47,780 nt of DNA from an uncultured Halieaceae bacterium (GTDB taxonomy: Bacteria; Pseudomonadota; Gammaproteobacteria; Pseudomonadales; Halieaceae). Both the position numbers and the translations under genes were made by a program. Below are positions 42,242 to 44,171 of this stretch, piece after piece. Where the stretch lies: contig CAJXDE010000003.1 of assembly GCA_913052635.1 (NCBI GenBank), positions 1-47,780 on the forward strand, given 5' to 3'. The stretch's first letter is position 1. Each line of letters begins with the position of its first letter. The notes beneath the pieces were generated by a model. That model did not search any database and was not told the origin of the DNA. It was given only the letters and a program-made list of their open reading frames with translations.

Positions 42242-43117
42242 CTATGCGACCATGGCGGCGCGCAGTTTTTTCATCGCATTGGATTCCAGTTGCCGAATGC
42301 GTTCTGCCGACACTTCATACTCCGCCGCCAGTTCGTGTAGCGTGGGCTTGTCTTCTGCCAGCCAGCGACGTTCGAGAATATCGCGGCTTCGACCATCCAG
42401 CTCTGTAAGCGCAAGCTGCAGTCGCGCCGAGCTGTCCTCTGCGAAGTCCTCCGCCTCGACCAGCTGACCGGGATCCGCCTGACCGTCCGTCAGAAAATAT
42501 TGCGGTGCCTGCCAGGCATCGTCTTCGTCACTGTCGGTCGGCGCATCGAAGGCTACATCCCGACCGGCCAGACGTCCCTCCATGCGCGTGACCTCTGCCT
42601 CATCAACGCCAAGGTCAGCGGCAACAGCACGGGTCTCCTCAGCTGACAGCCACCCCAGCGCTTTTTTCTGACTGCGCAGATTAAAAAACAGTTTTCGCTG
42701 GGCCTTGGTCGTCGCCACTTTGACAATGCGCCAGTTGCGGAGAATATACTCATGCATCTCGGCCTTGATCCAGTGAACTGCAAAAGACACCAGCCGCACG
42801 CCTTTGTTGGGGTCAAAACGCTTTACCGCCTTCATGAGGCCAACGTTGCCCTCTTGGATCAGATCAGCTTCAGCCAGACCGTAACCGGAATAACTGCGGG
42901 CAATGTGTACGACGAAGCGAAGATGCGCGAGCACCAGCTCTCTCGCCGAATCAACGCACTCCTCATAAAACAGGCGCTCTGCCAGCTCGCGCTCCCGCTC
43001 AGCGGACAGCAAGGCAATACTGCTCACCGCCTGAACATAGGCGGACAAGTTGGCGCCGGGCGCCATATTCAGCACCGCGCTGTTAGGCAGCGCCAGTGTA
43101 CGCGTTGTATCGGTCAT
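42242..43117 (-). CDS. rpoH: RNA polymerase sigma-32 factor
   Basis: Heat-shock sigma factor. 291 aa. Region 2 has LIQEGNVGLMKAVKRFDPNK and VSFAVHWIKAEMHEYILRNW; the RpoH box QRKLFFNLR marks the family and its DnaK/FtsH control; region 4 helix-turn-helix ERRWLAEDKPTLHELAAEYE followed by VSAERIRQLE. The ATG at 43117 is chosen because GGAGG lies 8 nt upstream; ATG 43141 and GTG 43159 are further options, and the last overlaps the CIRCE site. Downstream of ftsX, as in E. coli, but preceded by a perfect CIRCE element covering the promoter. Confidence 0.98.
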   Translation of the reverse strand: MTDTTRTLALPNSAVLNMAPGANLSAYVQAVSSIALLSAERERELAERLFYEECVDSARELVLAHLRFVVHIARSYSGYGLAEADLIQEGNVGLMKAVKRFDPNKGVRLVSFAVHWIKAEMHEYILRNWRIVKVATTKAQRKLFFNLRSQKKALGWLSAEETRAVAADLGVDEAEVTRMEGRLAGRDVAFDAPTDSDEDDAWQAPQYFLTDGQADPGQLVEAEDFAEDSSARLQLALTELDGRSRDILERRWLAEDKPTLHELAAEYEVSAERIRQLESNAMKKLRAAMVA

Positions 43118-43149
43118 GTCAGCCGCCTCCAAAAGGCTCATGGCCGCGT

Positions 43150-43179
43150 ATTTTAGCACTCTCCCATGCAGAGTGCTAA
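43150..43179 (-). promoter_or_regulatory. rpoH promoter (sigma-70 type)
   Basis: Minus strand: TTAGCA (43179-43174), 18-bp spacer, TAAAAT (43155-43150). Matches are 4/6 and 5/6. Transcription would start near 43142, giving a leader of about 25 nt to the ATG at 43117. Both boxes lie in or touch the CIRCE arms. Confidence 0.6.
43153..43179 (-). promoter_or_regulatory. CIRCE element (HrcA operator) at rpoH
   Basis: TTAGCACTC, 9-nt spacer, GAGTGCTAA: an exact match to the CIRCE consensus in both arms and spacing, with one more T/A pair outside. CIRCE is the operator of the HrcA repressor, whose activity depends on GroEL. It covers the predicted rpoH promoter, so HrcA should block rpoH transcription until unfolded protein occupies GroEL. 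hrcA is not in this window. Confidence 0.92.
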
Positions 43180-43180
43180 A

Positions 43181-43205
43181 CCCTGAAAAATACCGTTTTT
43201 CAGGG
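43181..43205 (-). terminator. Inverted repeat after ftsX, likely terminator
   Basis: CCCTGAAAAA and TTTTTCAGGG form a perfect 10-bp stem with a 5-nt loop, 12 bp past the ftsX stop. On the minus strand it is followed by TTTAGC, so the T-run is short. It ends one base before the extended CIRCE repeat and separates ftsX from rpoH. Confidence 0.6.
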
Positions 43206-43217
43206 AGTTAGCGGCAC

Positions 43218-44171
43218 TCAATGCGCGGCAAGGCGGTTGAAATAGCATGCTGAAGCGACCCAAGAGGTCAGCCACCCCAGGCCCGCGCCAAGCGCGATCA
43301 GCGCTAACACGTACCCGACGCCCGGGCCCTGAATCTCGCCAGGACTGCCGTAAAGGACAAATAATGCGTTGACCGGGCCTGCAATCCAAAGGCTTAACAC
43401 CCACAACATCAGGCCGGCAAGTACCCCGCCGCCTGCACCAAAATACAAGCCCGTATACAAAAAAGGCCTGCGGATAAAACCCGGGGAGCCGCCGATCACT
43501 CGCACCACCAAAATCTCCTCCCGCCGGGCATCAATCGCCAAATGCAGGGTATTAGCCAACGCAAGGATCGCACCCAGCACCATGGCAGCCCCCAAAGCGA
43601 GGCCCCAGCGCTCTGTCGCGAGCAGGGCCTGATCGAGGCGGCTCATCCACTGGCTGTCGACAATGACCCTGTCCACGCCTGACAGGGCACCGATCGCTTC
43701 AACCAACTGGCTCAGGGCCGTGTCGGTGCGGGGTGCAGTGGGCGATACCAATAGCGCGTGGGGCAGTGGATTATGATCCAGTGACGTCAACACCGCTGAC
43801 AATCCGGTTTGCTCGCCAAATACAGCTAGCGCCTCGTCTCGACGCACCAGGGTCGTGTCTTCGACGCTAGCCCATGTCACCAACTCGCGCTGCAGCGCCT
43901 CGGCCTGCTCGAGGTTGAGCTCCCCGCCCAGCATGACCGATACCTGTGCCGGTCGCTCCAGATCGGGCACCAGTGGTCTCAAATTATCGAGTGTCAGCAG
44001 CATAGCGCCCGGCAGCGCCAGGGAGATCGCCACAGCGAGCCAGACCATGCCTGTTGCGAGGGGCCTGGCCATTAATTTTTGCCAGCTACGGGTGGCCGCA
44101 GCCCGATGCTGCGAGCGCCAAGCCGCTATTCGACTCCATTCTTCTCTGGTCTGCCGCGCTGAAGAACTCAT
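43218..44171 (-). CDS. ftsX: Cell division protein FtsX
   Basis: Permease-like partner of FtsE in the divisome; transmits ATP-driven change to periplasmic amidase activators such as EnvC. 317 aa. A cytoplasmic N-terminal tail, TM1 (about 40-63), a large periplasmic domain (about 65-185), and three more TM helices in the last 130 residues (LALGAAMVLGAILALANTL, GAGGGVLAGLMLWVLSLWI, VLALIALGAGLGWLTSWVA). ARREEILVVRVIGGSPGFIRR is the coupling loop facing FtsE. ATG overlaps the ftsE stop (ATGA). Confidence 0.96.
   Translation of the reverse strand: MSSSARQTREEWSRIAAWRSQHRAAATRSWQKLMARPLATGMVWLAVAISLALPGAMLLTLDNLRPLVPDLERPAQVSVMLGGELNLEQAEALQRELVTWASVEDTTLVRRDEALAVFGEQTGLSAVLTSLDHNPLPHALLVSPTAPRTDTALSQLVEAIGALSGVDRVIVDSQWMSRLDQALLATERWGLALGAAMVLGAILALANTLHLAIDARREEILVVRVIGGSPGFIRRPFLYTGLYFGAGGGVLAGLMLWVLSLWIAGPVNALFVLYGSPGEIQGPGVGYVLALIALGAGLGWLTSWVASACYFNRLAAH

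Follow-up and report, generated by a model that had tools for sequence, protein, structure and literature searches.

We found a perfect CIRCE element, the operator of the repressor HrcA, directly before rpoH, the gene for the heat-shock sigma factor sigma32, and we consider it likely that this repeat serves as a functional HrcA operator overlapping the rpoH promoter, which would place rpoH in an HrcA-gated circuit. The first-pass annotation of the window (the whole 47,780-nt stretch of DNA analyzed here) had located such an element 36-62 nt before the rpoH ATG. The repeat was indeed found there with 0 mismatches, on the minus strand between ftsX and rpoH (Table 1), and it was the single match in the window, with no second CIRCE detected even at 3 mismatches. 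A chance origin was rejected on two grounds: shuffled windows gave a mean of 0.01 matches at up to 3 mismatches, and a perfect CIRCE is expected 3.5e-5 times per 2.39 Mb under equal base use. The rpoH product scored 385.4 bits against TIGR02392 (cut-off: 323.1; scanned from 43159) and contains sigma70 regions 2 and 4. The gene likely starts at the ATG at 43117, because a GGAGG motif precedes it and the proteins of close relatives start at this position with MTE or MTD. The product of the upstream neighbor, ftsX, scored 249.8 bits against TIGR00439, slightly below the cut-off of 255.

Table 1. Features before and around rpoH in the window, with predicted promoter elements.
Feature	Position	Strand	Basis or remark
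rpoH, heat-shock sigma factor sigma32, 291 aa	42242..43117 (stop included)	-	TIGR02392, above cut-off
Shine-Dalgarno-like GGAGG, 8 nt before ATG	43126..43130	-	read from sequence
Predicted sigma70-type -10, TAAAAT, inside and just past the right arm of CIRCE	43150..43155	-	consensus scan
Perfect CIRCE (HrcA operator), TTAGCACTC-N9-GAGTGCTAA	43153..43179	-	0 mismatches
Decayed sigma-E -10, TCTGC, inside CIRCE	43168..43172	-	sigma-E scan
Predicted sigma70-type -35, TTAGCA, inside the left arm of CIRCE	43174..43179	-	consensus scan, weak match
Palindrome between ftsX and CIRCE, CCCTGAAAAA-N5-TTTTTCAGGG	43181..43205	.	fold z -3.88
Decayed sigma-E -35, GGTATTT	43188..43194	-	9/12 jointly with -10
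ftsX, upstream neighbor, same strand as rpoH	43218..44171	-	TIGR00439

The annotation had made its reading depend on the repeat being conserved before rpoH in close relatives, and this was the case: among the matches listed, CIRCE was present at 0-1 mismatch in 104 of 110 rpoH loci, the window included. These loci comprise 30 that represent 30 of the 53 matching genomes and 80 of 560 named matches, which are partly the same places. By mismatch count, 95 loci had 0, nine had 1, and one (L113) had 2, and five were without CIRCE. The best matches in the latter were at 7 to 9 mismatches (L106, L110, and L112) or 5 (L111), and L071 was counted among the misses with a contig that begins 22 nt before the match. 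The 105 loci kept at up to 2 mismatches represent 86 distinct contexts, as L005-L034 and L035-L114 overlap in part. Among these 86 listed contexts, the pairwise difference was 0.008 and 0.019 in the two arms, 0.562 in the spacer, and 0.698-0.719 in the flanks; CIRCE before rpoH is under strong constraint. Within this set, the window's clade is defined as L005-L017 and L035-L048, with the line drawn at an RpoH identity of at least 83%. An hrcA match was found in 52 of the 57 genomes of the genus sample, and in all 17 of those with a completeness of 90% or more and a contamination of 5% or less.

The genome itself (2.39 Mb in 214 contigs, 84% complete, so that sites may be missing), whose nearest named relatives among the matches listed are Luminiphilus and other Halieaceae, also holds the repressor that the annotation presupposed. 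It encodes one full-length HrcA (TIGR00331 equivalog, 313.6 bits against a cut-off of 197.2, residues 6-339), and hrcA is followed by grpE and dnaK, the latter two named from their translations. Scanning at up to 3 mismatches located CIRCE in three places, namely rpoH (0 mismatches), groES (1 mismatch), and a leuA-like frame (C52, 3 mismatches), the last of which was set aside because the reversed-pattern control also gave one match. Only rpoH and groESL therefore carry the element at up to 2 mismatches, leaving groESL as the one other good site that the proposed genome-wide search could add, and no CIRCE with 3 or fewer mismatches was found at hrcA. With the rpoH element (43153-43179) taken in plus-strand orientation, its spacer and that of the groES element (L003, 1501-1527) are identical at 8 of 9 positions. 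The groES element is followed by groES (Cpn10) and a groEL frame, and by a perfect 13/13 match to the sigma32 consensus (CTTGAAA-13-CCCCAT). Further sigma32 matches were found at grpE and dnaK (12/13 each), and the best match at hrcA was 9/13. When the sampled genomes described below were scanned from 60 nt before to 80 nt after CIRCE, sigma32 matches of at least 11/13 occurred in 8 of the 30 groES stretches of the order, and near the rpoH element in 2 of 36 cases in the order and none of 26 in the class. The predicted sigma32 arm at groESL thus looks clear in this genome, but most of the order did not show it. Before rpoH, no sigma32 match of at least 9/13 was present in 43001-43500, on which basis autoregulation by sigma32 was rejected for the window's rpoH.

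The annotation mentioned scattered reports of CIRCE near rpoH in Proteobacteria, but the arrangement was the usual state among the CIRCE-bearing genomes of the order and of the rest of the class that we sampled. In the order sample (145 genomes), CIRCE at up to 1 mismatch was found in 43 genomes, hrcA in 43, and both in 39. One site lay at most 295 nt upstream of an RpoH-profile match in 37 of the 43 CIRCE-bearing genomes, a hand-entered list that was recomputed from coordinates with the same 37 genomes. Those without an rpoH site were G057, G064, G094, G098, G103, and G141, with G098 counted so although no rpoH place is listed for it. The rpoH-linked element was present in 33 of the 43 genomes with hrcA and in 4 of the 102 without it (p = 2e-19, which is overstated as the genomes share ancestry). 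A groES element was found in 30 of the 43 CIRCE-bearing genomes; 25 carried CIRCE at both genes, 12 at rpoH alone, 5 at groES alone, and 1 at neither. Four genomes (G052, G123, G127, and G177; loci L144, L151, L145, and L150) had CIRCE at rpoH as their single site within 1 mismatch and gave no hrcA match, which may reflect an orphan operator, a recent loss of hrcA, or a draft gap (79 to 97% complete).

In the phylum sample (398 genomes), an exact CIRCE was found in 82 genomes, and the own-order genomes among these (the present genome, G000, and G079) both carried it at rpoH. Counting sites up to 500 nt upstream, the rpoH element occurred in 26 of 32 CIRCE-bearing genomes in the rest of the class, which in GTDB includes the former Betaproteobacteria, and in 3 of 48 in other classes. 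The latter three all belong to family f78 (G228, G234, and G363; L179, L181, and L180), in which CIRCE lies about 50 nt before RpoH matches that are themselves below the family cut-off; there, the link may be of independent origin or have persisted separately. One genome, G444, had four exact CIRCE sites, none of them within 500 nt upstream of rpoH.

The annotation's placement of -35 and -10 hexamers in the arms was reproduced by a consensus scan, which gave TTAGCA-18-TAAAAT over the repeat; the whole predicted promoter spans 43179-43150, with a TG at 43157-43158 forming an extended -10. The TTAGCA letters occur in every CIRCE, and the element itself fixes TTAGCA-18-TAA; a complete -10 requires NNT after it. 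The third base past CIRCE was T in 86 of 86 rpoH contexts among the matches listed, and in the samples a T stood there at 36 of 36 rpoH sites of the order and 25 of 26 of the class, compared with 6 of 30 groES sites. All 20 listed contexts of the window's clade had AAT at this place. Conversely, a TANNA stretch ending right at CIRCE was found at 21 of the 30 groES sites and none of the 36 rpoH sites of the order. Because the T is conserved at rpoH and not at groES, and TANNA is found at groES only, CIRCE seems to double as the promoter at rpoH, whereas its more frequent place at groES is after a promoter.

This promoter picture was incomplete as first drawn, because in relatives a predicted sigma-E promoter is nested in the operator and in the window's clade it has decayed. 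Candidates were scored out of 12 against GGAACTT-(15-17)-TCTRA. In most relatives outside the window's clade, the -35 site reads GGAACTT or TGAACTT; GGAACTT is conserved upstream of CIRCE, and a TCTAA-like -10 follows at 15-17 nt, inside the operator at CIRCE position 7 or 9. Outside the clade, 59 of 66 contexts among the matches listed scored 11-12, compared with 0.24% reaching 11 when the upstream part was shuffled. The rpoH region of the window scored 9/12 and did not qualify as an E. coli-type sigma-E promoter, and none of the 20 listed clade contexts reached 10. Scores of at least 10 were obtained for 31 of 36 fetched rpoH sites in the order sample, 30 of them nested (shuffled control: 4.2%), and for 16 of 26 in the class sample, 11 of them nested (control: 0.8%). 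None of the 30 groES sites from the same order genomes and none of the three rpoH sites of family f78 reached 10. In some branches, the sigma-E -35 and -10 shift jointly, an observation left unused because it is partly forced by the 15-17-nt scan. The genome encodes RpoE (above the profile cut-off), and its own rpoE keeps a 12/12 upstream match (GGAACTT-16-TCTGA), which suggests that sigma-E specificity has not drifted in this genome.

Five genomes of family f59 (G482, G411, G484, G488, and G417; L160, L163, L164, L165, and L167) carried an un-nested sigma-E-like match just upstream of CIRCE, with its -10 at -9 to -5; judged by these predicted elements, the same two inputs are arranged differently here. 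Among rpoH regions lacking hrcA in the genome (n = 15, hand-picked from the 102 genomes), 10 scored at least 10 for sigma-E (control: 5.9%), and in all 15 CIRCE was matched at best with 5 to 9 mismatches. In the genomes picked, the putative promoter has apparently often been kept and the operator is gone. Two hrcA-less loci, L193 (G070) and L182 (G037), show the left-arm remnant GCACTC at the sigma-E-like -10, like a CIRCE relic.

The palindrome between ftsX and CIRCE occupies the place of the relatives' sigma-E -35. An inverted repeat scoring at least 7 was found there in 6 of the 20 clade contexts listed (shuffled control: 0.4%); with only these 6 contexts and no terminator called, it was rejected as a conserved element and, as argued here, has no part in the proposed circuit.

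We considered whether the repeat could be kept only as a promoter, or by shared descent, in cells whose HrcA does not control rpoH. The right arm does give the -10, the end of the left arm gives the sigma-E -10 letters in relatives, and four genomes keep the site with no hrcA match. However, a promoter needs no two near-invariant 9-nt arms across the 86 diverged contexts listed, the site is absent in 98 of the 102 hrcA-less genomes, and the hrcA-less regions picked above mostly keep the sigma-E-like letters with CIRCE at many mismatches; such an origin for the conservation is highly improbable. HrcA might otherwise act at this site mainly as a block to ftsYEX read-through into rpoH rather than on initiation, as 38 nt separate CIRCE from the end of ftsX, which has the same orientation, and the scan calls no terminator between them. 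The third base after CIRCE speaks against this account: rpoH sites conserve it as the last letter of a -10, groES sites do not, and we think it very unlikely that a block to read-through is the main effect.

A role for an RNA stem-loop in mRNA stability has been proposed for transcribed CIRCE, and the arms of the present repeat can pair. A transcription start 6-8 nt past the predicted -10 would nevertheless exclude CIRCE from the transcript; no credible Rfam match was obtained, and the rpoH 5' end folded no better than its shuffles (z 0.07), so that an action of the repeat in RNA is hardly credible. The same two results give no support to an RNA thermometer at the rpoH 5' end. Because a cognate hrcA is present, the site is strongly constrained, and it tracks hrcA across genomes, we take HrcA control of rpoH to be the best reading of the sequence data, from which we infer HrcA binding, repression, release on heating, and promoter use at rpoH.

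Under HrcA control, the circuit would run as follows. In an unstressed cell, GroEL would keep HrcA active, and HrcA bound to CIRCE would cover both sigma70-type hexamers and hold rpoH transcription low. On heating, unfolded protein would fill GroEL, HrcA would lose activity, and rpoH would be transcribed, after which sigma32 would drive groESL, grpE, and dnaK. HrcA would also act at groESL, so that groESL would be raised both directly and via sigma32 in a coherent feed-forward loop. Newly made GroEL would re-arm HrcA and shut rpoH down; the feed-forward arm via groESL and the feedback via GroEL are proposed because of the sites found. The annotation had put forward a serial circuit in which the GroEL-sensing repressor controls synthesis of the sigma factor. 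Its HrcA-over-rpoH step stands as the best reading, but the circuit would not be only serial, because groESL has its own CIRCE and sigma32 match and HrcA would therefore act on it directly and through sigma32.

As long as GroEL is abundant, HrcA would veto envelope-stress (sigma-E) induction of rpoH in most of the order relatives examined outside the window's clade. Within that clade, where the sigma-E elements have decayed, rpoH would be left with the HrcA-gated promoter. Generalizing this, hrcA-bearing members of the order and part of the class would share a 27-bp composite gate at which HrcA and GroEL veto sigma-E-driven sigma32 synthesis, and the window's clade would have lost the sigma-E input but retained the veto; we offer this tentatively, with the doubts slightly outweighing our confidence. 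If true, both the extended sigma70 -10 and the sigma-E -10 would lie in one operator, and sigma32 could rise under envelope stress only if chaperonin were in short supply. This reading would also put HrcA/CIRCE upstream of the sigma32 system in many Gammaproteobacteria; the E. coli state, with a sigma-E promoter but no HrcA, may then be a remnant after hrcA loss.

The link between CIRCE and rpoH is itself not new: a perfect CIRCE before rpoH, at -51, was predicted in Geobacter sulfurreducens in 2004 (PMC545781, Table 8). Similar to the window genome, G. sulfurreducens has CIRCE at rpoH and also at groESL; there, the element is also present at hrcA-grpE-dnaK-dnaJ (PMC545781), whereas the window genome has none at hrcA at up to 3 mismatches. 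G. sulfurreducens belongs to a distant group, and the available part of that report, in which HrcA/CIRCE and sigma32 are set out as two separate heat-shock systems, does not mention a nested sigma-E promoter (PMC545781). Within the portions available of five papers, CIRCE at rpoH is reported in PMC545781 and not in PMC3989490, PMC10696704, PMC5904260, or PMC6032397. A literature search covering titles and the starts of abstracts returned no account of a sigma-E promoter nested in CIRCE. Permina and Gelfand (2003) reportedly described HrcA/CIRCE regulons in the beta, gamma, and epsilon Proteobacteria, and may already list rpoH sites. What appears to be new here, as far as the predicted elements go, is the composite promoter, with sigma-E nested in the operator, and the loss of sigma-E in the window's clade.

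In E. coli, rpoH has a known RpoE-dependent promoter (PMC5493296). E. coli resembles the window's relatives in having a sigma-E-type promoter before rpoH. It differs from the window genome in that the control search gave no hrcA match in K-12. The sigma-E promoter of E. coli rpoH is named P3, and its counterpart elements in the window itself are decayed. In B. subtilis and other bacteria, CIRCE is found at groESL and dnaK. The window shares this operator and repressor family, but its target is a sigma factor gene. GroE raises the affinity of HrcA for CIRCE-like operators in H. pylori, in agreement with B. subtilis and C. trachomatis (PMC6032397). Sites of the window's type also differ from the groES sites of their own order, in that at rpoH the predicted promoter elements lie inside CIRCE.
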